A stretch of DNA of 64,000 nt from Ignavibacteriales bacterium. Lineage in GTDB: Bacteria; Bacteroidota; Ignavibacteria; Ignavibacteriales; Melioribacteraceae. Shown here in pieces: positions 1 to 36,026 of the stretch. Where the stretch lies: positions 2,170,001-2,234,000 of the forward strand of contig JAPLFG010000003.1 of NCBI GenBank assembly GCA_026390795.1. The letters run 5' to 3'. Both the position numbers and the translations under genes were made by a program. The notes beneath the pieces were generated by a model. That model was not told the DNA's origin and searched no databases. It was given only the letters and a program-made list of their open reading frames with translations. Every line of letters begins with the position of its first letter. Within the stretch, counting starts at the first letter, position 1.

Positions 1-2
1 AT

Positions 3-14880: not shown

Positions 14881-14936
14881 CACGTATTCTTTATCTCATT
14901 ATAACTAACAAATAATAATTATTTAACGGAGGTAAG

Positions 14937-16448: not shown

Positions 16449-16462
16449 TTTTTACTTGTTCA

Positions 16463-16696: not shown

Positions 16697-17854
16697 ATGA
16701 TAATTATGAGCACTGGAATTGACATTAATAATCCGAAACCTCTTTACGAGCAGATTGAAATTGATATAAAAGAAAAAATCGAGAGAGGTGAGTTAAAACG
16801 CGGGCAGCAAATCGCTTCGCAGAATGATTTAGTTAAAGAGTATGGCGTCAGTTTAATTACTGTAAAAAAAGCACTTTCGGATTTGGTTAACGATGGAACT
16901 CTGTTCACCCGGCAAGGCAAAGGTACTTTTGTTGCAGAAACATCATTAAGGAAAATTGAGCTCTCCGGTCACAAAACGATTGGTGTTGTATTAAGAGATT
17001 TAAAACATCCCTTCTTTTCGCTTATCATTCATAGCATAGAAAAAAGAACTTCCGAACTTGGTTATAATTTTTTGTTATCGAGTTCATCAAATAGTTTAGA
17101 AAAAGAAGAAGCGCAAATAAATAGGTTTAGAGAACTTAATGTAGACGGTATTATAATTGCTTCCTTATCACTGGAATATAGAGCGACAGATTTCATACAG
17201 AAACTTCATGATGATAATTTCCCTTATATAATCGTCTCTTATATTCACGATCCGGATTATTGGTATGTCGGTGCCGATCATGAATATGGCGGCTACATTG
17301 CAACGGAACATCTAATAAAACTCGGATATAAAAATATCGGCTACCTTCATGCTGGTAAAGGAAATTTATTGAGTGAGGTTCGCAAAAATGGTTATTACAG
17401 AGCGCTCAACGAATATAATGTTCAGTATGATTCGCACCTCGTTTACTATCTCAGCGAGGCAAAATTTGATCAGTATAGTGATCGTTTCATGCAAGGATAT
17501 GAATTTGGTAAAAAATTCCTAAGCTTTGAAAATAAGCCGGATGCATTATTTGTCTACAGTGATCTGGTCGCACTAGGATTTAATCAAGCTGTAACTGAAA
17601 ATGGAATGAAAATTCCGGATGATATCGCAATAGTTGGATATGACGATATTCAAGTTTCTTCTTTTGCTTCAATTCCATTAACAACAATACATCAGCCAGC
17701 CGATAAAATTGGGGAACTTGCAGTTGATATCCTGCAAAAACGGATAGATAATAAAGACATTGGTAATAGAACCATTTTAAAACCTACGCTAATGGTAAGA
17801 GATTCATGCGGCGCTAAAAAGAGAATTATAACACTGGATACATTAGCCGGATAG
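16697..17854 (+). CDS. GntR-type transcriptional regulator with LacI/PBP1-like sugar-sensing domain
   Basis: 385 residues. The N-terminal winged helix (about 10-75) has the GntR pattern PLYEQIEIDIKEKIERGELK, followed by SQNDLVKEYGVSLITVKKAL and TRQGKGTFV. The rest (about 95-375) is a periplasmic-binding-protein-like effector domain (KTIGVVLRDLKHPFF, GYKNIGYLHAGKGN, DIAIVGYDDI, TTIHQPADKIG). This is the AraR architecture, in which sugar binding releases DNA. It sits between the receptor unit and the enzyme genes and is the obvious candidate regulator of both. Start ATG 16697 or 16706. The next gene begins 37 bp downstream. Confidence 0.9.
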   Translation: MIIMSTGIDINNPKPLYEQIEIDIKEKIERGELKRGQQIASQNDLVKEYGVSLITVKKALSDLVNDGTLFTRQGKGTFVAETSLRKIELSGHKTIGVVLRDLKHPFFSLIIHSIEKRTSELGYNFLLSSSSNSLEKEEAQINRFRELNVDGIIIASLSLEYRATDFIQKLHDDNFPYIIVSYIHDPDYWYVGADHEYGGYIATEHLIKLGYKNIGYLHAGKGNLLSEVRKNGYYRALNEYNVQYDSHLVYYLSEAKFDQYSDRFMQGYEFGKKFLSFENKPDALFVYSDLVALGFNQAVTENGMKIPDDIAIVGYDDIQVSSFASIPLTTIHQPADKIGELAVDILQKRIDNKDIGNRTILKPTLMVRDSCGAKKRIITLDTLAG

Positions 17855-17890: not shown

Positions 17891-19669
17891 ATGTTATACC
17901 CAATAAGAAATAAGTTTCGCTCATTTATTGAACTTAATGACTTTTGGAAATTTAAAATTGACCGGGATAAAATCGGTGAAAAAGAAAAATGGTACAAAGG
18001 ATTTCAAAGTGATTTAGAAATTGCTGTCCCTGGAAGCTGGAACGAGCAGTTAGAAGAATTGGGATTACTCTTTTATGTAGGATCTACCTGGTATTACAAA
18101 AAAGTATTTATGCCAGAAGAAATTAAGAATAAAAGGATAGTACTTAGGGTCGGCTCTGCAGATTTTAATTCAAAAGTTTGGATCAATGGAAATCTTATCG
18201 GAGAAAACAATCAAGGATTTCTGCCTTTTGAATTTGACATAACGGAAAAAGTTACAACCGGAGAGAATTTTGACTTAGTAATTATGGTTAATAACGAATT
18301 GAATGGGGAAACTATTCCTCAGGGGATATCATCTGAAAATTATGTACAGGAGAATCGACTTAGAGAAGAAACATATCCTTCCGCTCGTTTTGATTTTGCC
18401 CCATTCGGAGGAATAAACAGGCCGGTAATAATTTATACAACTCCCCATGATTTTATTAGTAAAATCAAAGTTGATACAAAAATATTATCTCAAAAAATCG
18501 GTCAGGCTAACATTGAAGTTACATGCAATAATAATTTTAGTAACGAAATAAATTTTGAAATATCTGATCCACAATCAGCAAGTTCAAAGAGTGAAAAAAT
18601 AAAAGAGCATACGGCGAACACAGAAATAAAAATTGATAGCTGCAGATTCTGGTCGAACCGGGATCCCTATCTTTATGACCTTAACATCAAATTATTAAAA
18701 GAAGGGGATGTTATAGATGAATATTCTCTACCGATCGGAATAAGAGAAATAAGGATCACTGACAACAAAATTTTCCTTAATGATGAAGAGATCTATTTAA
18801 AGGGATTTGGTAAACATGAAGATTATTCTGTTATCGGGAAAGGTTTATTCCTTCCATTAATTGTAAAAGATTTTGAATTGATGAAATGGATTAATGCAAA
18901 TTCTTTTAGAACTTCTCACTACCCGTATTCGGATGAAATAATGTTCTACGCCGATAGAAAGGGGATTTTAGTTATTGATGAAGTTCCTGCCGTGAGTTTG
19001 GACTTTAGATTTGTAAATCAAAAAACTTTAGAGAATCATAAAGAATCTTTACGCCGATTAATCGAAAGAGATTATAACCATCCTTCTATTATTATGTGGG
19101 CTGCCGGTAATGAACCGAACTTAGTTGGCGAACCAAGTTATTATGACGGCAGCGGTAAAAAATATTGGGGTGATATATTTAATTATACGCGTTCGCTTGA
19201 TAAAAGCAGGCCGGTGACTGTTCCGAATTGTACAAGAGCGGGTGTTGATGATCCGGTTTTTGAATTCTGCGATATTATTTCGATCAATAGATATTACGGC
19301 TGGTACGAGTATCCCGGAAAAATTGAGTATGCAGTAAAGATTCTTGGAGATGAAATGGATTTGATTTATAAAAAATATCGGAAGCCGATGATAATGACAG
19401 AGTTTGGAGTTGATACTGTATCCGGACTGCATTCGACTTCCGATCAAATGTTCACAGAAGAGTATCAAGCAAAATATTTGGAAGAATATATTAAACTCTT
19501 CCGTACAAAAAGTTATATGGTCGGCGAGCATGTTTGGAACTTTGCCGATTTCAGAACTCCGCAGCATTTTAGAAGGGTTATAATGAATTTGAAGGGAGTA
19601 TTTTCAAGAGAAAGAGCGCCAAAATTTGCTGCATTCAAGCTGAAAGAAATATGGGGGAAAAACGAATAA
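17891..19669 (+). CDS. uidA: Beta-glucuronidase, glycoside hydrolase family 2
   Basis: 592 residues without a signal peptide, so probably cytoplasmic. GH2 order is clear: sugar-binding jelly roll (about 1-180), Ig-like domain (about 185-280), TIM barrel (about 285-592). The acid/base Glu lies in GNEP (about 408) and the nucleophile Glu in MTEFGVDT (504). The N-x-K pair that contacts the glucuronate carboxylate in E. coli GUS is conserved as MNLKG (Asn566, Lys568), which separates glucuronidases from galactosidases. SINRYYGWYEYPG and VGEHVWNFADF are also GUS-like. Expected reaction: release of glucuronic acid from non-reducing ends of imported oligosaccharides. The stop TAA shares its last A with the ATG of the next gene. 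Confidence 0.93.
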   Translation: MLYPIRNKFRSFIELNDFWKFKIDRDKIGEKEKWYKGFQSDLEIAVPGSWNEQLEELGLLFYVGSTWYYKKVFMPEEIKNKRIVLRVGSADFNSKVWINGNLIGENNQGFLPFEFDITEKVTTGENFDLVIMVNNELNGETIPQGISSENYVQENRLREETYPSARFDFAPFGGINRPVIIYTTPHDFISKIKVDTKILSQKIGQANIEVTCNNNFSNEINFEISDPQSASSKSEKIKEHTANTEIKIDSCRFWSNRDPYLYDLNIKLLKEGDVIDEYSLPIGIREIRITDNKIFLNDEEIYLKGFGKHEDYSVIGKGLFLPLIVKDFELMKWINANSFRTSHYPYSDEIMFYADRKGILVIDEVPAVSLDFRFVNQKTLENHKESLRRLIERDYNHPSIIMWAAGNEPNLVGEPSYYDGSGKKYWGDIFNYTRSLDKSRPVTVPNCTRAGVDDPVFEFCDIISINRYYGWYEYPGKIEYAVKILGDEMDLIYKKYRKPMIMTEFGVDTVSGLHSTSDQMFTEEYQAKYLEEYIKLFRTKSYMVGEHVWNFADFRTPQHFRRVIMNLKGVFSRERAPKFAAFKLKEIWGKNE

Positions 19670-20930: not shown

Positions 20931-22631
20931 ATGATTTTTGGACTTTCCTATTTAGATATAACAATTATTGCCCTTTACATGTTATTAATAGTTTATCTCG
21001 GTTTTAAAACAAAGAACAAAGTGAACTCAACCGGTGACTATTTTATGGCAGGAAGAAAGGGAAGCCGGTTCATGATGATAGCTAATGGATTCGGCGGAGC
21101 GACGCATACAGATCAGGCTATTGGTGTTGCCGGTGCAACGTATGAAATCGGTCTTGGTGGAATTTGGTATCAGTGGATGTACTTATTTGTAACTCCATTC
21201 TTTTGGCTTCTTGGTCCGGTGTACAGAAGATGCCGTTATGTTACTACAAGCGATTTTTTTGAAGAAAGATACGGCACCAAACATGGTATTTCATATTCAG
21301 TAATGGCATTGCTTTATTTTCTAATGGATATAGGTCTAATTCTGAAGGGAACCGGTACCGCAATAGAAGCTGTGACTCACGGGGCTATTTCTTCGGCATT
21401 TGTAATAATCTTTGTTACAATTTTTTTTCTCGCTTATAGTGTAATAGGTGGATTGAGATCTGCTTTAGTAATTAATCTGGTTCAGGGACTTTTCATTCTA
21501 ATCTTTTCATTTCTTTTAATTCCATTTGCAATTTCTGCCGGCGGAGGTATCACTGCAATCAAAGCACAACTTCCGGCACATATGTTCAGTTTTGTCGCAC
21601 CCAAAGAAGCAACATTATTTTTCATAATTATGGTTGTTATCAACGGTCTAATTGGAATTGTTGTTCAGCCTCATCATATGGCATTGGGCGGAGCTGGGAA
21701 ATCAGAAAAAAGTTGCAGGACCGGATGGACTTACGGAACATTTACCAAACGATTTGCAACGCTTGGTTGGGCTTTTGTCGGAGTTCTTGCAGCGGCACTC
21801 TATCCGGGTTTAACAAATAGTAATAGAGAAAATGCATTCGGAATGATGGTTGCAAACTTATTACCAAGCGGTTTGCTGGGATTAATGGTGGCTGCAATGA
21901 TCGCTGCAATTTTAGCTGTTCTTCATAACTATATGGTTGGCGGTTCGGCAATTATTACCAGAAATTTTTACAAAAAAATATATACGAAAGATTTAACTGC
22001 TGGGAAAGAATTAAAAATTGCAAGGATGTCATCAGTACTGTTAATTCTTGGTGGTGTTTCAATTGCATTAGTCATTCCAAGTGTGATTCAAGGATTAGTT
22101 ATTGTCTGGCATTTCACAGCATTTTTTGGAATTGGATTTTGGATGGCATTAATGTGGAGACGTGCAAACAGATACGGATTATGGGCAACATTGATTGTCA
22201 CTATTTTAGCAACGCTCTATTCCGGTTCGTATTTCTCATTTGGACTCGGTTGGTCAACAGCATATCAAATTGCCTTGTATCTGCCTCTCGGATTCTTAAC
22301 GATGATTATTGTAAGTAGTCTTACAAAAAGTGAACCGGAAGAAAATCTGAACCGTTTTTATGCCCTGTTGCACACTCCGGTTGGTGAAGAATATAAATTG
22401 AGAAATAACGGAATGACAATGATTTTCGAAGGTGAATCGATACATGCATCTTCAGACAAAAATGAATCGCTTGAAGAAAACGGGCATAGTCTGCTGCTTG
22501 TTGACTTGCTTTCACTTCATAAAAAATTCAGTTTCAAAAAATACCGGGTTGATATTGTAGGATTTTTGTGGGCTTCCCTTTTTGTATTGGGAATATTCGC
22601 TTTTGCCCTTTTTGTTGCGGGAATAGGTTAA
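20931..22631 (+). CDS. Sodium:solute symporter (SSS family)
   Basis: 566 residues with about 13-14 hydrophobic helices in the SSS arrangement. The N-terminal FGLSYLDITIIALYMLLIV, then STGDYFMAGRKG and the TSDFFEERYGT loop are typical family landmarks. It most likely imports uronic acids, amino sugars or short oligosaccharides with sodium. It lies 35 bp after the phosphoesterase in the uidA operon. An unusual hydrophilic segment of roughly 85 residues (about 465-545), rich in Glu and Asn, precedes the final helix. Substrate is not readable from sequence; glucuronate or a glucuronide is a reasonable guess from context. Confidence 0.88.
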   Translation: MIFGLSYLDITIIALYMLLIVYLGFKTKNKVNSTGDYFMAGRKGSRFMMIANGFGGATHTDQAIGVAGATYEIGLGGIWYQWMYLFVTPFFWLLGPVYRRCRYVTTSDFFEERYGTKHGISYSVMALLYFLMDIGLILKGTGTAIEAVTHGAISSAFVIIFVTIFFLAYSVIGGLRSALVINLVQGLFILIFSFLLIPFAISAGGGITAIKAQLPAHMFSFVAPKEATLFFIIMVVINGLIGIVVQPHHMALGGAGKSEKSCRTGWTYGTFTKRFATLGWAFVGVLAAALYPGLTNSNRENAFGMMVANLLPSGLLGLMVAAMIAAILAVLHNYMVGGSAIITRNFYKKIYTKDLTAGKELKIARMSSVLLILGGVSIALVIPSVIQGLVIVWHFTAFFGIGFWMALMWRRANRYGLWATLIVTILATLYSGSYFSFGLGWSTAYQIALYLPLGFLTMIIVSSLTKSEPEENLNRFYALLHTPVGEEYKLRNNGMTMIFEGESIHASSDKNESLEENGHSLLLVDLLSLHKKFSFKKYRVDIVGFLWASLFVLGIFAFALFVAGIG

Positions 22632-22786
22632 AAATAGATTCAGTTTACCAATGAATAAATAGTTTCATAGGTCATATACTTACATAATTCACATAGTTAT
22701 TTACTGAAAATAATTTGGAATAATATTCTTAGAGTAAGATGAGCGATAACTTAAAATACTGTTGGACTATAAACCGCGGAGTAATT

Positions 22787-24040
22787 ATGAAGATCAAAAA
22801 AAGTTTTTTATTGTTGCTGCTTTTTACAATGTCATTAAATATAAATCATTCTATAACCGCACAGCAAAATTCAATTACTAAAGAAGGACTATTAAAGGCG
22901 ATTTCCCAAACTTCCGATTATGCATCCAAAGTCTTGCTTGATGAAAACGGCAAGTCCCGTTGCGATTATGTTATGACCGAAGGGAAATGGTATGATTATG
23001 AACCGCCGTGGCACACCGGTCAAATTATAAATGGATTGGTTGAAGCATACAAAGTAACCAAAAACAAAAAATATCTTGCGTCGGCTAAGAAGGCAGGCGA
23101 TTGGTGGTGCAGTCTTCAAATTAAGGACAACTCTAAACTCAATGGAATGTTGAAAGCGATTCACGGGGACGGTATAAATTATATTGTATTTGCAACTATT
23201 ACAGACGGCACACCGGGATTATTCAATCTTTACAATGTCACGGGAATTAAAAAATATGCCCAAGTTCCAACTGAAGCCGGCAAATGGATGCTGGCTAATA
23301 TGTATGTGCCGGAACAAAAAATATTTTACGACGCCGTTGATCCAGTTACAGGTGATGTTGTAAAAGATAATAGTCCGTTTTGGCCCGAGAAGAAAAAACA
23401 GGTTCTATTCGATCTTGCTCGCCCTAATAACGAAGGATCTCTTTTTAAGGATATGTACGTATACACAAAGGATGAAAAATTCAAACAAGTATTTATTGAT
23501 TTGTGCGAAAGTCTAGTTGAAAAACAAGATCAGTATGGTTTATGGATGGATTTTACGCCGAACAATAAAGATGAAGGAACTTTTCATCCGCGTTTTAATT
23601 TATGGTATGCTGAATCGCTGCTTGAGGGTTTCGATCTTACCGGCAATAAAAAATATTTGGAAGCCGCAAAGAAAACTTTAGTGACATTTAAAAAAGCCCA
23701 GAAGAAAGACGGTACAATTTTTTACATAAACTATGTCGATGGCAGAGACAATGAAAATTCTATTACCGGTTCGGCAGTTGCATTTGCCGGTTCATTGTGG
23801 ATCCGTTTGGTTAAAGCCGGTGTTGGAAATGAATTTAAAGATAATATTGAAAAATCTGCAAAGTGGATTATCGCAAACAGATTCTCGGAAAATCATCCGG
23901 ATAAAAATTTAAGAGGTGCTGTTATTGATCTGCGAACCAGACGGAAAAACGGTAAAATATGGATGGCTCAAAGAGATGTTGGTACACCGTTCGGAATTAG
24001 GTTCCTTGTCGATTATTATAAATATAAATTTAACGAGTAA
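22787..24040 (+). CDS. Secreted (alpha/alpha)6-barrel glycoside hydrolase-like protein
   Basis: About 417 residues; signal peptide MKIKKSFLLLLLFTMS... to ITAQQ. ATG 22787 has GGAG at 22778-22781 with a 5-nt spacer and is preferred over the upstream in-frame ATG at 22739. Helical hairpins recur (IINGLVEAYKVTKNKKYLA, LLEGFDLTGNKKYLEAAKKT), typical of six-hairpin glycosidases such as GH88/GH105 or epimerase-like toroids. No family-defining motif was recognised with confidence. It starts the second enzyme run of the locus, 155 bp after the symporter, and only 3 bp separate its stop from the next gene. Confidence 0.6.
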   Translation: MKIKKSFLLLLLFTMSLNINHSITAQQNSITKEGLLKAISQTSDYASKVLLDENGKSRCDYVMTEGKWYDYEPPWHTGQIINGLVEAYKVTKNKKYLASAKKAGDWWCSLQIKDNSKLNGMLKAIHGDGINYIVFATITDGTPGLFNLYNVTGIKKYAQVPTEAGKWMLANMYVPEQKIFYDAVDPVTGDVVKDNSPFWPEKKKQVLFDLARPNNEGSLFKDMYVYTKDEKFKQVFIDLCESLVEKQDQYGLWMDFTPNNKDEGTFHPRFNLWYAESLLEGFDLTGNKKYLEAAKKTLVTFKKAQKKDGTIFYINYVDGRDNENSITGSAVAFAGSLWIRLVKAGVGNEFKDNIEKSAKWIIANRFSENHPDKNLRGAVIDLRTRRKNGKIWMAQRDVGTPFGIRFLVDYYKYKFNE

Positions 24041-24043: not shown

Positions 24044-25795
24044 ATGCGCTCTTTCCTAAATAGAATTCTAATCTTTACATCAATTTCTCTTTTCTTTTTA
24101 AACGGGTTTGTATTGTCGCAGCCGAAGCAATTTTATGTAGGAACTAACGGTTATGATTCAAATTCGGGAATGTTAATTGAAGAACCGTTAAGAACTATTA
24201 ATTGTGCTATCGGGAAAGCCGAAGCCGGTGATTCTGTTATTATTTTGCCGGGAATTTATAAAGAAATAATTAATCTCAACTCAAAAAGCGGCAAGCCTGA
24301 AAACCCAATTTACATTAAAGGATTTTCTATAAATGAAAATGAATATCCGGTCATTGAGGGAGGTGCTGAAACTCCCGCAATGGATTTGACTAATTCATGG
24401 ATTTTATTGAATAACTCAAATTGGATTGTTGTTGAAAAAATTAAATTCATCAATGGTTGGACATATCCGATCAATATTAAAAATTCTTCATACATAACAT
24501 TTCGAAGTTGCCGATTTTTTGGAGGACGCAGAGTAATTTCTGCCGGCGGTATTCAAACACATCATATTCTTGTTGAAAAATGTTTCTGGGATCAGGGCGG
24601 AGATTTGCTCTGGCATTTGGTTGCTGATAAAGTCGGCGTTGACGCATGGACCTCGATGCACCACGGAAGTATGATGTATTTCAACGGATCTATTATTGAT
24701 TTCAGCGGCACCGGCGGATCAATCGTAATAAGAGGAAACAAAATCATTAATGCCTTCAATGCCGTTAGGTGGAGAGGCGTAAAAGGACTTGATGCTAATA
24801 TCGAAATCTATGATAACGATATTTCTCAAGTACGCGATAACGATTTTGAACCCGAGATATATACATATAATCTTCATGTTTATCATAATTTATCCCACAA
24901 TGTTCACCGGACAATGTCTGTTGATAATGTGGAAGGCGGAGAAGTTTATTATTACGGAAATGTTGTCACGACCGATAACGATTCATGGGCTCGAACTGTT
25001 TGTACGGGTTTTTGGAAAATTTACGGTGGACAGCGAAAGCGCTCGTTTCCTATGTACGCATTTAACAATAGTTTTTACGGCCTTGCAAAGGCGATGAGAA
25101 GCGAAGATGAGTTGATCTTGTTCAAGCATTTTAATAACGCCTATTTTTTTACAGGCGATACTGCTTGGTATCTGTACCAATGGAACGACACTAATGAATT
25201 TGATTATGATATTTCAAATCGAACTTGGGCAAAAGTTTTTATCGATCACAATCAAGAAAATTACGGAAAGATAAGCGACATTAAATTTGCTGATCCGGTT
25301 AAACAAAATTTGATTCTAGCAAAGGGCAGCCCGGGAATAGATGCCGGTAAAATTATGTCTTTCCCGGAATTTGATTGGAAGCAGAGTTTTGAAGGCAAGG
25401 CCCCCGATATCGGTGCATATGAAAATAATAAATTGGTAGAGGGTCCTCCGTTCAGGTTTATGATTCCTCCGGATGGAAGTATCGAATACAAGGAAAAACC
25501 AAGAATTGTTAGAAATTATATTGACGGTAATAAAGTTATCATCTACTTCTCAGGTCAGATTGATCCTTCATCTGTGAAGATCACAGATGTTGCACTGTAC
25601 AAAAGAGATGAAAAGTTAAAGGTCGAGTCGGTCTCATTCCCGAATAATAAATATGAAATGATAGTGGGAGTTCAAACAATTCCTGTTAAAGGTGATTTAT
25701 CTCTTTCTTTTCATTCGATGCCTTTAGGTATTAACGGAGAACAAGCGACTTATTGGGCATCTACTATTAAAATTCATAAAAGTGTTTCACAATAA
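24044..25795 (+). CDS. Secreted right-handed parallel beta-helix protein, putative polysaccharide lyase
   Basis: 583 residues with a signal peptide (MRSFLNRILIFTSIS... to VLSQ). The start of the helix (FYVGTNGYDSNSG, EPLRTINCAIGKAEAGDSVIILPGIYKE, GKPENPIYIKG) is the standard opening of DUF1565/PL6-type beta-helices. Further turns continue to about residue 400, and a small beta domain forms the C-terminus. Possible lyase or glycan-binding function; catalytic Lys/Arg residues cannot be assigned without an alignment. Translation is likely coupled to the preceding (alpha/alpha)6 gene. Confidence 0.65.
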   Translation: MRSFLNRILIFTSISLFFLNGFVLSQPKQFYVGTNGYDSNSGMLIEEPLRTINCAIGKAEAGDSVIILPGIYKEIINLNSKSGKPENPIYIKGFSINENEYPVIEGGAETPAMDLTNSWILLNNSNWIVVEKIKFINGWTYPINIKNSSYITFRSCRFFGGRRVISAGGIQTHHILVEKCFWDQGGDLLWHLVADKVGVDAWTSMHHGSMMYFNGSIIDFSGTGGSIVIRGNKIINAFNAVRWRGVKGLDANIEIYDNDISQVRDNDFEPEIYTYNLHVYHNLSHNVHRTMSVDNVEGGEVYYYGNVVTTDNDSWARTVCTGFWKIYGGQRKRSFPMYAFNNSFYGLAKAMRSEDELILFKHFNNAYFFTGDTAWYLYQWNDTNEFDYDISNRTWAKVFIDHNQENYGKISDIKFADPVKQNLILAKGSPGIDAGKIMSFPEFDWKQSFEGKAPDIGAYENNKLVEGPPFRFMIPPDGSIEYKEKPRIVRNYIDGNKVIIYFSGQIDPSSVKITDVALYKRDEKLKVESVSFPNNKYEMIVGVQTIPVKGDLSLSFHSMPLGINGEQATYWASTIKIHKSVSQ

Positions 25796-25852: not shown

Positions 25853-27094
25853 ATGAAAACTACCAAGAAAAAATTATTGATCTTTCTTTCTTCTATCGCT
25901 CCGGGAATGTTATTGGTTGGATACAATATCGGTACAGGAAGTGTAACAACAATGGCTCAAGCAGGTGCTTCATATAATATGATGCTTACATGGACTGTTC
26001 TTGCAGCGTGTGTTTTTACATATTTTCTCCTGATGGCTTTTGGAAAATTTACAGTTGTGACCGGAGAAACAGCTTTATTCAGCTATAAAAAATATTTCGG
26101 CAAACCTGTTGCTTTGCTTGTACTCTTCGTGTTGGTCTTTACCGAAATGGTCTCAAGTATCGGCGTAATGGCGATTGTTACGGAGGTAGTAAAAGAGTGG
26201 TCGAAACCTTTAACTACTTCCGGAGAAGGAATAAGTACAATTTTTCTTGCAGTTTTTTTCGCTGTAATTATGGTATATACATTGATCAAAGGGAAATACA
26301 GTTTTGTTGAGAAGATATTAACGGTGTTTGTCGCTTTGATGGGTTTATCATTCATATTAACAATGTTTATGGTTATTCCCGATGCGGGAATTGTTATAAG
26401 GGGTTTGATACCAAATATCCCGAATGAAGTTGGCGCATCTTTGATTGTTACTGGAATGCTTGGTACCACAATGGGAGGGGTCTTATATGTGGTTAGGTCT
26501 ATTACCATAAAACAGGCAAAATGGAAACTGAGCGATATTAAAATTGAAAGAAGAGACGCAATAATCTCATCATCGTTGATGTTTCTTCTAAGCATTGCAG
26601 TGATGGCGTGTGCTGCGGGAACCTTATTCCCAAAAGGATTGCATATTGAAAACGCAATCGATATGATCCGTCTTCTTGAACCGCTTGCCGGAAGATTTGC
26701 CATTTCGTTGTTCGTTGTGGGAATTGTCTCCGCAGGTTTATCATCTCTTTATCCTCATTATATGCTGGTTCCTCTGCTGCTTTCGGATTATCTTGGAGAA
26801 GAATTGGATTTCGGGAAAACCAGAAATAAAGCGATAATAATTTTTTACGCTTCGCTTGGTCTCATTGTACCGATTTTTGGCGGCAAGCCGGTTTTGGTTA
26901 TGATAGCATCCCAGGCATTTACACTTCTAGTTACACCGCTTGTTATTATACTTACGCTGATTTTGCTGAATAGAAAATCGTTAATGGGCGAACATAAAAT
27001 CGGCTTAGGTATGAATTTGATATTGTCGCTAATAGCTGTTTTCACAATCATCATGTCAGTCATAAGTGCGGTAGCTCTGTTTGGTTTATTCTAA
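25853..27094 (+). CDS. Nramp-fold membrane transporter lacking the canonical metal-binding motifs
   Basis: 413 residues with about 11 hydrophobic helices. The first helix reads APGMLLVGYNIGTGSV followed by AQAGASY, aligning with the Nramp opening GPG...DPGN...QAGA, but the metal-coordinating DPGN is replaced by NIGTG. The sixth-helix MPH motif is likewise replaced (GGVLYVVRSITIKQAKW). Classical Nramp proteins need both motifs to carry Mn2+/Fe2+, so a different substrate, such as a sugar or sugar acid, is likely. It sits between glycan enzymes and 14 bp before a sugar isomerase gene. Family membership is inferred from the first-helix pattern, overall length and topology. Confidence 0.72.
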   Translation: MKTTKKKLLIFLSSIAPGMLLVGYNIGTGSVTTMAQAGASYNMMLTWTVLAACVFTYFLLMAFGKFTVVTGETALFSYKKYFGKPVALLVLFVLVFTEMVSSIGVMAIVTEVVKEWSKPLTTSGEGISTIFLAVFFAVIMVYTLIKGKYSFVEKILTVFVALMGLSFILTMFMVIPDAGIVIRGLIPNIPNEVGASLIVTGMLGTTMGGVLYVVRSITIKQAKWKLSDIKIERRDAIISSSLMFLLSIAVMACAAGTLFPKGLHIENAIDMIRLLEPLAGRFAISLFVVGIVSAGLSSLYPHYMLVPLLLSDYLGEELDFGKTRNKAIIIFYASLGLIVPIFGGKPVLVMIASQAFTLLVTPLVIILTLILLNRKSLMGEHKIGLGMNLILSLIAVFTIIMSVISAVALFGLF

Positions 27095-27108: not shown

Positions 27109-28032
27109 TTGTACAATAAAAAAATTATATGTTGTTATCTCTATCCGATAACTAAATATGGTTATCCTCCTCCTGCAGAAAATACAAATAAATATCTGGA
27201 AGAAATGCATGCTCTCGGTTTTACTTCAGTTGAAATTGAAGGAATACGTGAACCTCATCTATTACAAGTATATGAACAAAGAGATGAAATAAAAAAGAAA
27301 CTTGATAAACTGAAATTAAATGTTCCTTATTTCTGCGCGGTACTCCCCGAATTATCCTCGATGGATGAAAATATCCGCAATCATAATATTGAGTTGTTTG
27401 AGAAGGGGTGTGAAATCGCTTCTTTATTCAACGCGAAAGGCATACTTGATAATGCACCTATTCCACCGTATGAATTTCCGAAGGGTATTCCGATTTTACG
27501 GCATTATAGCAATGAGGTGTTAAATGCCGCCTCTTACCCGGCTGATTTTTCATGGCAGAAATTTTGGGATGGACTGATACCTACTTTTAAAACACTCTGC
27601 GATATTGCCGATAAGTATAATTTAACTTACCAGCTTCATCCCGCAACAGGAGTTATCACTGATTCGGCGGAAACTTTTTTGGATTTCTACAATGCAGTTA
27701 ATAAAGAGAATCTCAAATTCAATCTTGATACAGCCAATCTATTTGCTCATTCGGAAGATCCTACCACTTCACTCAAAAGAATAAAAGATCATGTGAGTTA
27801 CATCCATCTATCTGATAATCGCGGATCAAAAGTAGAGCATCTAGCTGTCGGTAAAGGGAAAATCAACTGGAAGGAATTCTTAAAAACTTTGCATGAAATT
27901 GAATATGATGGCGATATTGGAATTGATATTGGCGGGGAAGAATCCATTGTTGATAATCTTGATGATGCATACAAAAATGCTGCAGAATTTCTAGAATCAA
28001 ATTGGCTTAAAACAAAAGCCCCATCAAAATGA
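27109..28032 (+). CDS. Sugar phosphate isomerase/epimerase (xylose isomerase-like TIM barrel)
   Basis: 307 residues. The TTG start at 27109 is supported by TGAGGA ending 6 nt upstream and by the lack of any early in-frame ATG. AP-endonuclease-2/xylose-isomerase-like features include YQLHPATGVITDSA, KFNLDTANLFAHS, YIHLSDNRG and GDIGIDIGGEESI, which carry the expected metal-binding Glu/Asp/His positions. No signal peptide, so cytoplasmic. It probably interconverts a monosaccharide or uronate released by the pathway. The stop overlaps the start of the hexosaminidase gene by 4 nt (ATGA). Confidence 0.82.
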   Translation: MYNKKIICCYLYPITKYGYPPPAENTNKYLEEMHALGFTSVEIEGIREPHLLQVYEQRDEIKKKLDKLKLNVPYFCAVLPELSSMDENIRNHNIELFEKGCEIASLFNAKGILDNAPIPPYEFPKGIPILRHYSNEVLNAASYPADFSWQKFWDGLIPTFKTLCDIADKYNLTYQLHPATGVITDSAETFLDFYNAVNKENLKFNLDTANLFAHSEDPTTSLKRIKDHVSYIHLSDNRGSKVEHLAVGKGKINWKEFLKTLHEIEYDGDIGIDIGGEESIVDNLDDAYKNAAEFLESNWLKTKAPSK

Positions 28033-30599
28033 AAAAAAATATAAACATTTGTATAGTTGCTTTAATCTTCAGTTTGCCAATCTTGGCACAAGAAGAAATA
28101 TTGACTGTTATTCCTCAACCTCAAGAATTCAAATTCACCGAAGAAAAATTTTTGCTTGATAACCCGTCTCCAATGATAAAATTGTTTTGCAAGAATTATG
28201 AACCGGTTAATATTGCCATCGAAGAATTGCAAGATGTTTTTAAAAAACATGTGAGCACTTCAAGTTCTCTCAAATCCGAAACTTCAGAAACCATACAAAT
28301 CGGCATCCCATCGGAAGATAAAAATTTCAAATCGATTTGTAAGAGCCACAATTTATTTCCGGAAGAAATACTCGGTGAAGAAGGTTATAAATTATTGATA
28401 ACCGCTAAAACCATAATCATTGCTGCTAACAATCAAAAAGGATTGTTCTATGGAATCCAGACTATAAAGCAAATGATTAGGGGAACAAGGAATTCATTTC
28501 TAAGAGGAGTGAGAATTAAGGATTGGTCTTCACTCAAATACCGAGTCGTAATGGATGATATCAGCCGCGGACCGATCCCGACTGTTGAGTTTATGAAATA
28601 CCAGATACGAAGACTTGCCGAAATGAAAATAAACTTTTTTACTCCTTACATTGAACACGTTGTTAAGACAAAAAGTCATCCAGAATTTGCACCTGTTGAC
28701 GGTTCACTTACGATTGCGCAATGGAAAGAAATTTCAGATTATGCTTTTAAGTATAACATAATGATGATTGGTAACTTCCAATCGTTCGGTCATTTTAACA
28801 ATATATTGAGCACACCGGAGTATGCACATCTTGGAGAAAGCGGAACAATGATTTCGCCTCTTCTTCCTGCAAGTTATAAATTTTTAAAAGATATTTATTC
28901 AGAAATGGTTCCGGTATTTTTCGCTCCGTTTTTTAGTATAAATTGCGATGAAACATTTGACCTTGGAAAAGGCGCTTCTAAAAAAATGGTTGACAGTCTC
29001 GGTTATGCGGAAGTTTATTATCAGCACATTATTAAACTTTACAACATTGTTAAGAATCTTGGTAAACAAGTAATTATTTGGGGCGATGTACTCCTGGAAT
29101 ATCCGGATCTATTCAAGAAACTTCCGAAGGATATCATCATAGGAACTTGGACATACGATGATCTCGATTCGTATGCAAAATTTATAGACCCGATCAAAGA
29201 AGCTGGTTTTAAATTTTTTGTTACACCCGGCGTTCTTAATTCCGGTAGATTATTCCCTAACTATACACAGTCATTTGGAAACATTAAAGGATTTGTGAAC
29301 GCTGCAGTAAAATCCGGTGCTATGGGTATGATCAATACCGTTTGGGACGATGGAGGGAATGCATTTTTTTCTAATGATTGGTATGGAGTTTCATATTCAG
29401 CTGATAAAAGCTGGAATTCGCAGTCTAATGATTCAACTGATTTTGATACTCGTTTTAATTCCGGTCTGTATGGCGATAAAGAAAATTATTTTACCAAAGC
29501 TGTCTGGAAGTTACTGGAATTATCAAATCTAGAACCAACTGATGGAATGAATGATAAAATTCTGTTTGAGAAATTACTTCCCGATTCATCAAAACATTTA
29601 CGCGTTTCATTAAATGACTGGGATAAAGTTATTGCAATAACCGACAAAGCAAAATCAATAATGAATAAAAGTAATCCTGTAAATTACCGGAACGATAAAA
29701 AATATTTTCTTTTTGTCTGCGATCTTTACAGCACACTTGCCAGTGAAAGATTCAATTTGCTGAAAGCTGCCAACTTATATTCTCGTGCCGATTCAATATT
29801 TATTCATGATAGACCGGAAGCAAGGAGATCAATACTTGAATCGATCAACCTGATAAGCGGGATCATTAAAAATGAAATTTCTCTGAAGTTCGAATTTGAA
29901 AAACTTTGGCTGGAAGAAAATCATACTTATGCGTTAGACCGGATTACCGGAGGCTATCAGAATAAAATAAATGATTTTACTGATGTTAAAACAAAGTTAC
30001 TGGAATCATTAAAAAGGCTGGATTCCGGTCTTCCGATTTCTTCAAGCGAGGAAACCAGATTAACTATTTCCAAGTTACCGGGTAAATATTTTAGAGAATG
30101 GCTTGCAGTAAATCCTTTCCCCAATAGAGACGGGAAACCTCTTTCCAAAATCGATTATCTAGCTGAAATAGGCGGCGAATTTTTTATTCATCCGAAAGTA
30201 ACGCAGGAATTTTATTTTGATTCAACTAAGTACCGCTGGTCTAGAATTGCAACTTCATACCAAGACATTGTTAATCTCACAGAAATGTTTCCGAAGAATA
30301 ATAAGAACGTTGTTAGTTATGTGTTTGCTACAATAGAAGTGAATAAAGACACAACTGTAAAAACGCTTGTCGGGTTTAGTGATGGGATTGAAATCTTTCT
30401 TAATGGGGGAAAGGTTTTCAGTCGTGAATCGAACGGAAGATTAATTCCGGATGAATACTACTTTGGGTTACCTCTCCAAAAAGGAATAAATAATTTGATG
30501 TTGAAAATTTCTCAAACAAACGGAGAGTGGGGATTCACTTTTAGATTAGCCGATGTTGATGTAAGAAGCAGAAAAAACCGTTACAAAATTATTTTTTAG
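28029..30599 (+). CDS. GH20-like beta-N-acetylhexosaminidase, secreted
   Basis: 856 residues; signal peptide MKKNINICIVALIFS... to LAQ. An N-terminal GH20b-like domain (VIPQPQEFKFTEEKF ... GYKLLITAKTIIIAANNQKGLFYGIQTIKQM, about 20-165) is followed by a TIM barrel with YRVVMDDISRG and the catalytic-type Asp-Glu pair in NCDETFDL (Asp307-Glu308). The rest (about 480-850) is helical then beta-rich, with KTLVGFSDGIEIFLNGGKVF like a carbohydrate-binding domain. The usual GGDE reads NCDE, a divergent branch. Predicted to remove terminal HexNAc, feeding NagA and NagB. Overlaps the preceding isomerase gene by 4 nt. Confidence 0.8.
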   Translation: MKKNINICIVALIFSLPILAQEEILTVIPQPQEFKFTEEKFLLDNPSPMIKLFCKNYEPVNIAIEELQDVFKKHVSTSSSLKSETSETIQIGIPSEDKNFKSICKSHNLFPEEILGEEGYKLLITAKTIIIAANNQKGLFYGIQTIKQMIRGTRNSFLRGVRIKDWSSLKYRVVMDDISRGPIPTVEFMKYQIRRLAEMKINFFTPYIEHVVKTKSHPEFAPVDGSLTIAQWKEISDYAFKYNIMMIGNFQSFGHFNNILSTPEYAHLGESGTMISPLLPASYKFLKDIYSEMVPVFFAPFFSINCDETFDLGKGASKKMVDSLGYAEVYYQHIIKLYNIVKNLGKQVIIWGDVLLEYPDLFKKLPKDIIIGTWTYDDLDSYAKFIDPIKEAGFKFFVTPGVLNSGRLFPNYTQSFGNIKGFVNAAVKSGAMGMINTVWDDGGNAFFSNDWYGVSYSADKSWNSQSNDSTDFDTRFNSGLYGDKENYFTKAVWKLLELSNLEPTDGMNDKILFEKLLPDSSKHLRVSLNDWDKVIAITDKAKSIMNKSNPVNYRNDKKYFLFVCDLYSTLASERFNLLKAANLYSRADSIFIHDRPEARRSILESINLISGIIKNEISLKFEFEKLWLEENHTYALDRITGGYQNKINDFTDVKTKLLESLKRLDSGLPISSSEETRLTISKLPGKYFREWLAVNPFPNRDGKPLSKIDYLAEIGGEFFIHPKVTQEFYFDSTKYRWSRIATSYQDIVNLTEMFPKNNKNVVSYVFATIEVNKDTTVKTLVGFSDGIEIFLNGGKVFSRESNGRLIPDEYYFGLPLQKGINNLMLKISQTNGEWGFTFRLADVDVRSRKNRYKIIF

Positions 30600-30611: not shown

Positions 30612-32363
30612 ATGAAGAAAACATTATTCGTTTTGTGGATTATTAGCAGCAGCCTATTTGCACAGGACACAAAGTTAGATCCTTTGCAAATTGCAAAAAG
30701 AATAGCTGATAGAGTAATTAGAGAGACTTCTTTTGAATTCACGGAAATTGAACAAAAACCTTCATTTGATCTTCAGGTGATTGATTTTCCAAAAGCATTT
30801 AATGACCGGAACACGGCAAATGTTTATGCGTTCGCAAAAATTATTGCAACTGAAAAAATAAATTTGATGTTCGGTATTAGCTATTCCGAACCATTTAAAA
30901 TATGGATCAATAATCAATTAGTCTTCCAAAATTCAAGACATACAAAGTTCCGTTTCAATGAAATTGCTTACGAGATGTTCACTTATCAAGATACTTTTTC
31001 GGTTAGTCTTAACAAAGGTGAAAACAGAATTATTGTTTACTCGCCAAAAACTAAAAATTCAATTATATATTTAAGAGAAATAACAGCTGCCGAGAAGAAA
31101 CCAATAGCTAAATTCGAACCCATACATCAGGAAAAGAAATTTACATGGTCTTGGTGCTACTTGGTGAAATCAAAAATGGGTTCTTCCAAGATCATCAACA
31201 ATTACCCAAGCAAGCTTTTACTTGATAGTCTTTATGACGAAAAAACATTTAAGAATTATGATTGTATTATTCCAAAACCCGCTTTATTGAAAAAACTTGC
31301 AATTAATCCTCTCAATACATTTAAGAAAGATTCTTATGCAGATTGGAATTACCCGAATGGAATATTAATGATGACGGTAGCAACTCTATCTGATGCAACA
31401 GACGACTTGCGTTATAAAGAATTCGTAAATGAGTATTGTAATTTCATCATTGATAACTTAACTCAGTTCAAAAAACAATATTACAAAGATCATGATCTCC
31501 GTGGGAGTTTCTACCGCATATTCCGGAAATGTATGCTTGATGATGCCGGTTCACCATCTCTTCCGTTTGCTGAACTTGAATTAATTGATAAAACTAAGAG
31601 ATATGATGCGCTTCTAAATGAGATGGTTAATTACGTTTACAAAGAGCAGCCAAGATTGAGCGATGGAACTTTATGCCGTCCCGAGCCAGAAAAATGGACC
31701 GTATGGGCAGACGATCTTTTTATGTCGGTTCCGCTCTTTGTAAGAGCCGCCAGGATAAATCATAATAAAAAATACCTTGACGATGCCGCTAAACAAGTAA
31801 TTAATTTTAATAAATATCTTTTTGATGCTGAGAAAGGTTTGTATAAGCACGGCTGGTTCAGCCAGTCTAATGAAAAATCAAAAATATTTTGGGGAAGAGC
31901 TAACGGATGGGTTATATGGGCAACCTCGGAACTAATACAGAATTTGCCAAAGAATCATCCTTTATTTAAACAAGTTGAGAAAATATTCACAAACCATTTA
32001 AGAGGATTAATAAAATTTCAAGATGAATCAGGAATGTGGCACCAAATTCTAGATGATAAAAGCTCGTTCGAAGAAACATCATGCACATCAATGTTTATCA
32101 TTGGTTTCTCCCGGGCAATTATAAATGGAATGATTGATAAAAAATATTCAGCTAATGTTATGAAGGCCTGGAACGCTTTGCAAAACAATTTCAGCCAAGA
32201 CGGAATAGTTAAAGATATTTGCTGCGGAACCGGAATAGGATATACATCAGAGTTTTATAAAACAAGAGACAGGTACAATAACGATCCGCGTGGACTTGGA
32301 GCAGTTATTACATCGGCAATCGAAGTTGATAGGCTGGAAAAATATCTACGGACCAATAAATAA
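30612..32363 (+). CDS. Unsaturated uronyl hydrolase, GH105/GH88 type, with N-terminal beta domain
   Basis: 583 residues, signal peptide MKKTLFVLWIISSSLFAQ. An N-terminal beta-rich domain (about 20-165, KIWINNQLVFQNSRH) precedes an (alpha/alpha)6 barrel with YteR-like motifs: SYADWNYPNGIL, WADDLFMSVPLFVRAA (Asp367-Asp368, probable catalytic Asp), and WGRANGWVIWATSEL. Enzymes of this type hydrate and remove the 4,5-unsaturated uronate left at the non-reducing end by polysaccharide lyases. This implies that a lyase acts upstream, consistent with the lyase-like genes in the cluster. It lies 12 bp after the hexosaminidase gene. Confidence 0.87.
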   Translation: MKKTLFVLWIISSSLFAQDTKLDPLQIAKRIADRVIRETSFEFTEIEQKPSFDLQVIDFPKAFNDRNTANVYAFAKIIATEKINLMFGISYSEPFKIWINNQLVFQNSRHTKFRFNEIAYEMFTYQDTFSVSLNKGENRIIVYSPKTKNSIIYLREITAAEKKPIAKFEPIHQEKKFTWSWCYLVKSKMGSSKIINNYPSKLLLDSLYDEKTFKNYDCIIPKPALLKKLAINPLNTFKKDSYADWNYPNGILMMTVATLSDATDDLRYKEFVNEYCNFIIDNLTQFKKQYYKDHDLRGSFYRIFRKCMLDDAGSPSLPFAELELIDKTKRYDALLNEMVNYVYKEQPRLSDGTLCRPEPEKWTVWADDLFMSVPLFVRAARINHNKKYLDDAAKQVINFNKYLFDAEKGLYKHGWFSQSNEKSKIFWGRANGWVIWATSELIQNLPKNHPLFKQVEKIFTNHLRGLIKFQDESGMWHQILDDKSSFEETSCTSMFIIGFSRAIINGMIDKKYSANVMKAWNALQNNFSQDGIVKDICCGTGIGYTSEFYKTRDRYNNDPRGLGAVITSAIEVDRLEKYLRTNK

Positions 32364-33229: not shown

Positions 33230-34408
33230 ATGAAAAACTCAATTATAGTAAGCATCTTGATTTTATTTTCTTTTTCTCCGACAGCGAACATTGCACAGCA
33301 AAATGGGATCGGAAAAATCTGGCTGAGTGAAAAGAAAACGTGGATTGATGATTCAACCAAATATGAAATAACACAATGGACAACTACTGGGAAAAACTGG
33401 CATCTTTATTTTAATGTAGAATCATTCATTGATGAAAATGATGCAATTATTTATTCAGACAGAGCCGGTGCGATTAATTTATTCAAGCTGAATCTTGGCA
33501 ATGGTACTATTACGCAATTAACAGATAATACTACCGATGTTAGCGGAGCGGCATGGCATTACCCTAAATTAAAACAGATTTGGTACGAGGTTGATAATTC
33601 GATCCGTGTGTTAAACTATGAAACTCTCAAGAATAAACTTGTCATTAAAAATTCTTCAGCCGATTTAAAATCATTTACGGTTACATGCGATGCAAAATAT
33701 TTGGTTTTTTCAGTAAACAAAAATCCAGGTTATAGCAGTAACAATAGTACGGGTCCATATGCTATAATGAGGTTTGATCTGGTGACGGGAGATGTAAAAC
33801 AAATCTCACCTGATTACGGAATCAATATTAGCCATCTGCAAGCATCTCCGACAAATCCCAAAATCATATCATATGCCTGGCAGCATCAGTATAGAAAAGG
33901 TGGTCCGGGAACTGTTGGAAATGTACCGATAAGATTTTTTTGGATAAATATTGACGGGACTGACGGGGGACCAGTTGGACCGCAGGAATTCGGAATTCAT
34001 CGAACACATGAATTTTGGTTTTATGATGGATCAAGGTTCGGATATTCCGCACGTTATATGTTCGGACCAAATAAAGGAAGACAGTTTCTTGGTTCTTGCA
34101 AGCCTGACGGCAGCGACAATTTTATGTTTGAGGTTCCGGTTGGCCCGGCTCACTCGCAAGTTTTCAAAGATAATAAACATTGGGTGGCTGATCAAAACAA
34201 CGGAATGATATTAACAATGTGGACCTTTAACAGAGATAAAATAATAAAGGAAGAAAAATTATTTCGGCATGATTCATCTTGGGGTGAACAGCCGACACAT
34301 CCGCACCCTCATTTCAGCCCGGATGGAAAATATATTATGTTAAGCACAGATAAAACCGGCACACCTCAAGTATATACTGTGAAAGTAAATTTGCGGGACG
34401 ATAAATAA
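33230..34408 (+). CDS. Oligogalacturonate lyase-like protein, PL22 family beta-propeller
   Basis: 392 residues with a signal peptide (to NIAQQ), unlike the cytoplasmic enterobacterial Ogl. A seven-bladed propeller is suggested by repeats such as IIYSDRAGAINLFKLNLGNGTITQLT. The metal site of oligogalacturonate lyase (Gln and two His in Q-x-x-H-x-H) is present as EQPTHPHPHFSPDG with Gln354, His357 and His359. A further His in GPAHSQ (about 308) and the HRTHEFW segment (His257/His260) match the other ligand and the catalytic-base region. Expected to cleave unsaturated or saturated galacturonate disaccharides. Followed 16 bp later by a GH28 gene. Confidence 0.8.
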   Translation: MKNSIIVSILILFSFSPTANIAQQNGIGKIWLSEKKTWIDDSTKYEITQWTTTGKNWHLYFNVESFIDENDAIIYSDRAGAINLFKLNLGNGTITQLTDNTTDVSGAAWHYPKLKQIWYEVDNSIRVLNYETLKNKLVIKNSSADLKSFTVTCDAKYLVFSVNKNPGYSSNNSTGPYAIMRFDLVTGDVKQISPDYGINISHLQASPTNPKIISYAWQHQYRKGGPGTVGNVPIRFFWINIDGTDGGPVGPQEFGIHRTHEFWFYDGSRFGYSARYMFGPNKGRQFLGSCKPDGSDNFMFEVPVGPAHSQVFKDNKHWVADQNNGMILTMWTFNRDKIIKEEKLFRHDSSWGEQPTHPHPHFSPDGKYIMLSTDKTGTPQVYTVKVNLRDDK

Positions 34409-34424: not shown

Positions 34425-36026
34425 ATGAATTTAGATCGGAGTAAATTTTTTGCTCTCTGCAGTTTTATTTTTATTATCAATTTGTCTGCACAAACCACGC
34501 GTGAAATATTTGTTAAAGATTTTGGCGCTAAAGGGGACGGTGTTTCTTTAGACACAAAAGCGATTCAGAATGCAATTGATAAGTGCGCCGAGGAAGGAGG
34601 AACTGTATTCTTTTCACCTGGTAAATACTTAACCGGTTCATTGGTGTTGAAAAGTAATGTAGATATATACCTCGTAAACGGCGCGATAATTCTTGGCAGC
34701 ACTAATCTAAATGATTATATCGAACATCAGCCGGAACTTCGATCATACAACGATGCTTTTCTAAAATACAGTTTATTCTATGCAGAGAAAGTAAAAAATA
34801 TTTCGATTCGGGGCGAAGGGATAATTGACGGGCAAGGCGGCTCATTCAAAGTAACCACAAAAGTAAAGCCCGACCGCTATAAAAACAGACCATTCATCAT
34901 CAGATTTGTAGAATGCGAACAAGTTAGGATTGAAAATCTAACGCTTCAAAACTCAGCAATGTGGATGCAGCAATATCTTGCATGTAACGACTTGGTAATT
35001 AGAGGTATAAAAGTTTTCAATCATGCAAATCAAAATAACGATATGATAGACATTGACGGATGCAGCAACGTTATTATTTCCGATTGCATTGGCGATACAG
35101 ATGACGATGGAATTGTTTTAAAGAGTACATCTCCGCATATTACCGAAAATGTTGTAATCAATAATTGTATTGTCAGCAGTCACTGTAATGCTCTTAAATT
35201 AGGGACAGAATCAACAGGTGGTTTCAGAAACATTGCTGTATCGAATATTATTATAAAACCATCGAGGGTTAAAAAAACTATTTTCGGTTCACCTACAGGA
35301 AACGGTGGGATAAACTTATCAACTGTTGACGGTGGAATTCTGGAAGGAGTAGTAATTTCGAATATAAACATAGATGGACCGGATGTTCCAATATTTTTAA
35401 GGTTAGGAAATAGAGCACGTAAATATTCAGAAAGCGCTTCGCCTGCTGGTGTCGGGGAATTTAGAAATGTAAGCATCGGCAACGTAATTGCTACGAACAT
35501 TAAAAGTTTCGGCTGTTCAGTTACAGGAATACCGAACCATTACATTGAAAACGTTATGCTTAATAACATTACAATTGTTTTTAATGGCGGTGTGAAAAAA
35601 GAAGATTATAAAACAGAAATTCCAGAATTAGAAGAAAATTATCCCGAAGGAACGATGTGGGGAAATCTTCCTGCTTACGGATTTTATTTTAGACATGTCC
35701 GCGGAATAAAACTTATTAACGTAAATATTTCTTTCAAGGAAACAGATCAACGTCCCGCCATAATATTTGATGATTCAAAAGATGTAGCAATTAATCAATT
35801 GGACGCAATGGTAAACGGTGAAGCAAATAATTTGATCGGTCTTACCAGAAGTCAAGATGTTTTTATAGAAAATTCGGTTTCAAAAGGTTCTGCAAAACAT
35901 TTTGTATCTGTATCTGATTCTGTTTCAAAAAATATTTTCTTGAATGGTAACGATCTAAGAAACTTCGAGAGACCTTTCTCCCAAAAGGTGAAAGGGCAAG
36001 TAAAATTATTAAATAGTATTAATTAG
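34425..36026 (+). CDS. GH28 polygalacturonase-like glycoside hydrolase, secreted
   Basis: 533 residues, signal peptide to NLSAQ. The N-terminus FVKDFGAKGDGVSLDTKAIQ and GGTVFFSPGKYLTGSL is the standard GH28 opening. The catalytic Asp region is NNDMIDIDGC (Asp206/209/211) and GDTDDDGIVLKS (Asp226-228), followed by SHCNALKLGTES instead of the fungal GHG/RIK motifs, as in many bacterial GH28 proteins. The rest forms a right-handed beta-helix. Probably hydrolyses a galacturonate- or rhamnogalacturonate-type linkage. It closes the glycan locus; AGGAATT upstream of ATG 34425 is its ribosome site. Confidence 0.88.
   Translation: MNLDRSKFFALCSFIFIINLSAQTTREIFVKDFGAKGDGVSLDTKAIQNAIDKCAEEGGTVFFSPGKYLTGSLVLKSNVDIYLVNGAIILGSTNLNDYIEHQPELRSYNDAFLKYSLFYAEKVKNISIRGEGIIDGQGGSFKVTTKVKPDRYKNRPFIIRFVECEQVRIENLTLQNSAMWMQQYLACNDLVIRGIKVFNHANQNNDMIDIDGCSNVIISDCIGDTDDDGIVLKSTSPHITENVVINNCIVSSHCNALKLGTESTGGFRNIAVSNIIIKPSRVKKTIFGSPTGNGGINLSTVDGGILEGVVISNINIDGPDVPIFLRLGNRARKYSESASPAGVGEFRNVSIGNVIATNIKSFGCSVTGIPNHYIENVMLNNITIVFNGGVKKEDYKTEIPELEENYPEGTMWGNLPAYGFYFRHVRGIKLINVNISFKETDQRPAIIFDDSKDVAINQLDAMVNGEANNLIGLTRSQDVFIENSVSKGSAKHFVSVSDSVSKNIFLNGNDLRNFERPFSQKVKGQVKLLNSIN

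Follow-up and report, generated by a model that had tools for sequence, protein, structure and literature searches.

The nearest precedent for the permease described here is an Nramp-related protein (TCDB 2.A.55) named PxpT in Corynebacterium glutamicum, YcsG (MntG) in Bacillus subtilis and PxpG in C. difficile, which has been connected with 5-oxoproline and is disputed as a Mn2+ importer. Deletion of pxpT abolished growth of C. glutamicum on 5-oxoproline, growth was restored by a plasmid copy, and the authors state that they 'cannot exclude' metal (PMC13274462, excerpt). Overexpression of YcsG raised cellular Mn, the protein was renamed MntG and reported to be a Mn2+ importer, and an mntH mntA ycsG triple mutant could be obtained solely with an extra copy of ycsG (PMC10448178, excerpt). 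Nramp-related proteins have been described as a paraphyletic group from which both metal-binding motifs are missing and which is 'entirely uncharacterized' save for the NRMT-like and MntG groups; EleNRMT transports Mg2+ without the canonical motif (PMC12873925, excerpt). Uptake of monomers was assigned to MFS proteins (PMC12472053, excerpt), and the DEH transporters of one Flavobacterium were said to 'have not been identified yet', with a sugar-permease-like gene named (PMC5334617, excerpt). For the alginolytic systems that Alteromonas sp. 76-1 possesses, an Nramp gene labelled as a metal-ion transporter was drawn within the alginate loci (PMC6431674, excerpt). A literature search, judged from its search results, yielded no claim that an Nramp protein transports sugars or uronates, and 'nramp' occurs 0 times in the main text of the GapMind paper (PMC9007349).

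The DNA analysed (the window, 64,000 nucleotides) is from an Ignavibacteriales bacterium. The permease ORF occupies positions 25853–27094 of the forward strand, starts with ATG at 25853, has a stop codon ending at 27094 and is intact, encoding 413 residues. PF01566 (Nramp) was the sole Pfam family found in it (189.7 bits against a cut-off of 29.8, E 1e-55). The protein also passed the cut-off of NCBIfam NF037982, 'Nramp family divalent metal transporter' (76.8, cut-off 50), a broad sequence model that says nothing on substrate. It missed the MntH-type models PRK00701 (72.0, cut-off 430) and TIGR01197 (22.3 bits, cut-off 272.5); on these scores and on the missing motifs, identity with canonical MntH was rejected. 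A structure was predicted from a 16-sequence alignment (pLDDT 83.1, pTM 0.83). Its best match was DraNramp (6c3i, Z 45.0, rmsd 2.5 Å over 373 residues), followed by EleNRMT (7qji, Z 42.7), human NRAMP1 and, at Z 40.3, a B. subtilis YcsG model; the first match outside Nramp was KimA (8b71, Z 29.8). The predicted fold is that of Nramp (LeuT-type), and the preliminary description, which had held that the landmarks of this fold remain, was borne out.

Residue columns were taken from a MAFFT alignment of 147 non-identical Nramp homologues, which for TM1 agrees with a phmmer alignment to DraNramp; 95 of the sequences belong to one clade, termed here the IGTGS clade. Replacement of DPGN and MPH by NIGTG and GGVLYVV, reported in the preliminary description, was confirmed at residues 25–29 and 208–214. 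The DPGN columns of TM1 hold G27-T28-G29-S30 (the codons of residues 25–30, N-I-G-T-G-S, lie at 25925–25942, +, computed from the ORF start), the MPH columns of TM6 hold G208-G209-V210, and the column of the TM3 Glu (E134 of DraNramp) holds S101. The codons of TM6 residues 204–216 (GTTMGGVLYVVRS), R215 included, were likewise computed to lie at 26462–26500 (+). GTGS was present in all 95 clade sequences, in 80 of them within the called ORF and in 15 in frame just upstream, these ORFs having been called with too late a start. R215 was also kept in 95/95; as placed by alignment, its column is that of DraNramp H237 in TM6b. H237 lies 'further down TM6b', and H237Q strongly lowered H+ transport (PMC6398981, excerpt). 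Canonical Nramp/MntH proteins (DraNramp, BfraNramp) thus have fold and sequence family in common with the window permease, which differs in being without DPGN, MPH and the TM3 Glu and in having Arg in the TM6b His column.

Across the 95 clade sequences, no D, E or H occurred in the DPGN, MPH and E134 columns. The E134 column was S, A, G or C in every sequence, and exceptions to G, A, S, V or I in the ligand columns were few (T, F, P, M and C, with M at column 210 in 3/95). One metal ligand of DraNramp is preserved, Q378, which corresponds to Q354 and is Gln in 90 of the 95. Metal ligands kept at shifted positions had been named beforehand as an outcome that would speak for metal; none was found in the columns examined of the clade alignment. 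Because the D56, E134 and H232 columns are without acid or His, there is no reason to assume proton coupling. Residues in columns of TM1, TM3, TM6 and TM8 vary with context label, an association confounded with descent, as is that of column 98 (Glu in 41/41 group A sequences, Gln in 14/16 of group C).

These residues bear on the reading in which Mn2+, Mg2+, Fe2+ or some other divalent metal is brought in by the permease as a cofactor for metal-dependent enzymes of its locus, through a changed coordination shell, in the manner of NRMTs with Mg2+ and of the report on YcsG/MntG. The PF01566 fold, the NF037982 match and the conserved Q354 are in its favour, as are the effects of YcsG on cellular Mn and in the triple mutant and the movement of Mg2+ by EleNRMT. 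Against it, the ligand columns are without acid or His, whereas NRMT-type (NDAGG) sequences aligned here retain Asp in the D56 column, and an invariant Arg stands in TM6b. On this and the evidence of context given below, metal import is considered unlikely.

With PF01566 and without DPGN, MPH and proton-pathway residues, the window permease has the features by which Nramp-related proteins were described (PMC12873925, excerpt). The motif loss on which the preliminary description was founded is real, and was already a known property of that group. What is new here is a monophyletic IGTGS clade with invariant GTGS and R215, linked to catabolic loci. The clade formed one side of a single branch (SH-aLRT 98) in a tree of 101 rows, which took in 50 of the 95 clade rows (random, with some by choice) and was built by a short search with SH-aLRT as the only support measure; long-branch warnings in the trees concerned L192, L012 and others. 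It was separate from DPGN, NDAGG, DPSG and GPGT sequences, among which the tree resolves no order. In the phylogenetic check that the preliminary description had proposed, the clade thus stands apart from the NDAGG sequences, which stood in for EleNRMT, itself outside the tree. EleNRMT and the NRMT-like Mg2+ transporters have the fold in common with the window permease, and neither has DPGN or MPH; NRMT-type sequences differ in their D56-column Asp and lie on other branches. NRMT identity was rejected, since the clade has its own branch and the TM1 Asp is missing.

YcsG/PxpT was represented in the tree by L184, a pxpABC-linked sequence from the Bacteroidota phylum, and its relatives; the clade did not group with these GPGT sequences. 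The PxpT/YcsG system resembles that of the window in having an Nramp-family protein in an operon catabolising a small carboxylate, and the TM1 Asp is likewise missing from the pxpABC-linked relatives identified here, which have Gly in the D56 column as the IGTGS clade does. These relatives differ in GPGT (TM1), P-Y-N and L-H (TM6) and in belonging to another tree group. No pxpABC was found among the window proteins scanned, from which LamB_YcsF and carboxyltransferase families were absent.

The window genome has three PF01566 genes (matches at E <= 10), none with DPGN; the two besides the permease gene (L187, L188) are of NDAGG and DDDPSG types. Close homologues were found in two genomes besides its own (64% and 59%) when 57 genomes were searched as relatives. 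A scan of named genomes confirmed at least 576 relatives, of which the best 80 loci were taken. These came from Bacteroidota and related phyla, KSB1, Neomarinimicrobiota, Gemmatimonadota, Acidobacteriota, Hydrogenedentota, Kiritimatiellota, and Alpha- and Gammaproteobacteria.

In the window, the permease lies within a run of genes on the forward strand, the strand of all features listed here unless noted. The run starts with a GntR/LacI-type regulator with a sugar-binding domain (16697–17854, Pfam scan) and ends with a GH28-family gene of polygalacturonase type (34425–36026, Pfam scan); a gene for a SusC-like TonB-dependent receptor (11983–14880, Pfam scan) precedes it. Upstream of the permease, Pfam gave a GH2-family enzyme (17891–19669) and a GH88-like/C5-epimerase-C-like protein (22739–24040), Pfam and NCBIfam gave an SSF sodium:solute symporter that may be another inner-membrane importer (20931–22631), and weak Pfam matches below cut-off suggested a right-handed beta-helix protein (24044–25795). 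Downstream, Pfam gave a PF01261 TIM-barrel isomerase/epimerase-like gene with a TTG start (27109–28032), a GH20-like protein (28029–30599), a GH88-family protein of unsaturated uronyl hydrolase type (30612–32363), a member of the glucosamine-6-phosphate isomerase/6-phosphogluconolactonase family (PF01182, 32426–33202) and one of the oligogalacturonate lyase family (PF14583, PL22-type, 33230–34408, Pfam scan). A URO-D family protein is encoded at 7107–8234 on the reverse strand, and its same-cluster homologue (L054, 4138–5265) lies beside an SSF gene. The product of 14937–16448 was rejected as SusD-like, since Pfam found only FlgD_ig and a secretion tail in it. A metal riboswitch was also rejected, with no Rfam family at gathering score within the window.

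The permease had been placed 14 bp before a sugar isomerase. The distance holds, at 14 nt, if the PF01261 gene starts with TTG at 27109, and related proteins begin with similar residues. The name 'sugar isomerase' is a guess from family membership, as the protein reached no NCBIfam cut-off. Among 35 non-redundant group A loci, 28 have a homologue of this gene within four genes of the permease, and in 23 it directly follows the permease. The two genes overlap in some of these loci, and their adjacency spans several phyla, from which we take the arrangement not to be chance.

In the pathway proposed for the window, the TonB-dependent receptor and exported glycosidases and lyases would break down a uronate-containing glycan, from which the GH88- and PL22-type enzymes would release unsaturated uronates. 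Either the permease or the SSF symporter, or both, would carry a product into the cytoplasm, where the neighbouring TIM-barrel enzyme would isomerise it. The permease would act as an inner-membrane importer of Nramp fold with its central site rebuilt for an organic substrate. G27, S30 and the small TM6 residues may make room for this substrate, R215, as positioned by alignment, may help to hold or guide a carboxylate, and import is the presumed direction. The likeliest substrate is a sugar acid or some sugar product close to one, perhaps an unsaturated uronate or the corresponding keto form, though the GH20-like and PF01182 genes of the locus would also allow an amino sugar. SSF, MFS (ExuT-type) and TRAP uronate importers have a role like the one proposed, inner-membrane uptake of sugar acids, and belong to other Pfam families, whereas the window permease belongs to PF01566 only.

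The partner pathway differed between subclades. Besides the GH88/TIM-barrel-isomerase type of the window, an alginate/KDG type and an amidohydrolase–NagB-like type were distinguished. Alginate/KDG loci, among them those of Zobellia uliginosa (L129) and Paraglaciecola (L113, L117), contain PL7, PL6 and heparinase-II/III-type lyases, an SDR, a shikimate-kinase-like/6PGD fusion, a PfkB kinase and Eda; the names KDG kinase, PFK, SDR and MFS are best NCBIfam matches below cut-offs, with Eda alone above. The Alteromonas gene cited above is likely a relative of the L113/L117 genes, judging by its setting and not by its sequence. Both Paraglaciecola loci have two divergent clade permeases per alginate locus, one copy beside PL7/6PGD and the other, in L117, by UxuA and a mannitol-dehydrogenase-family gene. 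A PFK-like gene occurs in alginate-type loci (L057 7360–8583, L059 7345–8562, L055 10634–11860), with a KDG-kinase-like gene on one side and an aldolase or permease gene on the other; its best NCBIfam match, below cut-off, is PPi-dependent PFK. In another alginate-lyase locus (L063 10619–12508), a shikimate-kinase-like domain, perhaps a gluconokinase, is fused to 6-phosphogluconate dehydrogenase. In other subclades, for example in Maribacter and Kriegella, the permease lies between PF01979 amidohydrolase and PF01182 genes; these amidohydrolases matched PF01979 (with PF07969) only, and 'NagA' is a guess. Further partners were DGOK, Eda and a gluconolactonase-family gene in L056, MR_MLE (mandelate-racemase-like) in L143, and Lar_N (lactate-racemase-like) in three loci (L108, L118, L123).

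Some of these partner families speak for metal import, as UxuA, MR_MLE, PF01261 and LarA are metal enzymes. Against it stands the observation that the partner pathway shifts with subclade while catabolism of sugars or organic acids persists. Across most subclades the constant feature is catabolism of a sugar, sugar acid or other acid, with no evident need for metal, and the variable one is the partner pathway. When three context labels (66/95 rows labelled) were placed on the clade tree, 4 changes were counted, against a mean of 22.6 for shuffled labels; none of 200 shuffles was as low.

Gene context was counted at 58 gene places with at least three called genes on each side, after removal of seven loci that repeated a genome; the places correspond to 56 loci, as L113 and L117 give two each. 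A reference carbohydrate-catabolic family lay within ±3 genes at 48/58 clade places and 0/20 control Nramp genes, where the reference families had been taken from loci of the clade itself, the control came from one phylum and several enzymes were labelled by family only. With a stricter list, from which broad families such as SDR, amidohydrolases and GFO/IDH were dropped, the counts were 47/58 and 0/20. A reference family was adjacent on the same strand at 43/58 clade places and 0/20 control genes. No reference family was found within ±3 at 10/58 places (11 by the strict list); six of the ten were from Acidobacteriota (L106, L107, L115, L120, L121, L130).

A Pfam tally of neighbours, which is a less biased check than the reference-family count, was made on 20 clade places drawn at random from 46 eligible (two from L117, with three shared neighbours counted twice). 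Figures are among the 25 families listed for each set (for the clade, 25 of 111). The 120 clade neighbours included GH88 (10), AP_endonuc_2 (8), M16 peptidase (7) and Glucosamine_iso (6), and the 120 control neighbours Fe_dep_repress (4), FeoA (4), LamB_YcsF (3) and Amidohydro_1 (2). The tally took in four of the six Acidobacteriota places, which probably account for the M16 peptidase and MTHFR families seen in it. The iron-dependent repressor, at 4/120 in the control, was absent among the 25 of 111 families listed for clade neighbours, which counts further against metal import.

These positions also bear on the reading that the gene merely travels with catabolic islands and has no role in them. 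A sporadic distribution would fit this, a match at E <= 1e-30 having been found in 22/395 phylum genomes, the window's own included. The same-strand adjacency, and the isomerase gene immediately downstream in most group A loci, overlapping in some and recurring across phyla, make such hitch-hiking very improbable.

Another reading is that MFS, SSF or TRAP proteins import the sugar and the permease either exports a product or moves some counter-ion or by-product connected with uronate catabolism, such as Na+, ammonium, a divalent cation set free or a chelate of metal and uronate. MFS genes adjoin the permease gene in alginate/KDG loci and SSF genes do so in many group A loci; in addition, divalent cations bind to polyuronates, and ammonia is a product of NagB-type enzymes. 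At 17 of the 48 places with five genes on both sides, the window included, another same-strand polytopic protein (SSF, MFS, DctM or unidentified) was encoded within ±5, and sugar import may thus fall to a protein other than the permease. At the other 31 places, a count that includes places without sugar context, there was no such protein, and we see no single by-product common to alginate, NagB-like and E. coli CoA operons. A counter-ion or export role is accordingly regarded as quite improbable.

The E. coli member was first found by tblastn in a record labelled as a plasmid (L194, CP054241.1, E. coli pBone7_3, 1–17193). This 834-kb 'plasmid' record carries the chromosomal genes dnaB, alr and dusA and is probably a misassembled or mislabelled piece of chromosome. 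Its permease copy is broken; other E. coli genomes have intact copies. Of 5426 complete E. coli genomes, 546 carried a clade member, at 547 places in total, all chromosomal; in 545 of these genomes the match covered most of the query. The E. coli relative has the RefSeq accession WP_023141302.1. In strain SK1144 (L195 3690–9387) the operon comprises a CoA transferase, an enoyl-CoA hydratase, the permease and an FAD-dependent oxidoreductase, with a divergent LacI-type regulator; this accessory operon lies between dnaB and qorA. The protein fell inside the clade, whose support stayed at 98 after its addition, beside the second Paraglaciecola copies, and is 50% identical to L113_1. To our knowledge, the CoA transferase, enoyl-CoA hydratase and flavoenzyme of this operon are not metal enzymes, a further point against metal import. 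The E. coli operon and the loci with lactate-racemase-like enzymes suggest a broader range of organic acids.

Loss of the metal-site acids, the fixed Arg and the constancy of catabolism while the partner pathway changes together lead us to the view that the window permease is likely to import sugar acids or similar organic acids and not a divalent metal. Its label as a metal transporter is probably wrong. Counted against this reading are the passed NF037982 cut-off, the retained Q354, the ten places without a catabolic neighbour, the further same-strand polytopic proteins at 17 of 48 places and the lack of a DPGN-type Nramp among the three matches in the window genome. Catabolic context alone can also mislead, as YcsG, encoded in a catabolic operon, was reported to be a Mn2+ importer (PMC10448178, excerpt). 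For the whole clade, labelled as metal transporters, we hold with moderate confidence that its members are importers of sugar acids or organic acids, marked by a missing TM1 Asp and a TM6b Arg, with specificities that split along with the partner pathways. The cargo suggested in the preliminary description, a sugar or uronate, is partly supported, by the clade-wide motif loss, by the catabolic context of most members examined and by the lack of shifted metal ligands in the aligned columns, and may be too narrow. Its further statement that this substrate class is not established for the fold has to be qualified by an organic precedent, the need for PxpT in growth on 5-oxoproline (PMC13274462, excerpt).

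If the importer reading is true, a large number of genes now carry the wrong name of metal transporter, and those catabolic loci, for uronates and other compounds, in which no importer is seen close by would have gained one. The Nramp fold would then exemplify a family that switched from metal ions to metabolites, or in the opposite direction; since Nramp-related proteins are paraphyletic to canonical Nramps (PMC12873925, excerpt), organic substrates could predate metal. The result would also bear on the YcsG/PxpT dispute. With a member in E. coli and relatives in cultured marine bacteria (Zobellia, Maribacter, Paraglaciecola), the reading lends itself readily to a direct test.
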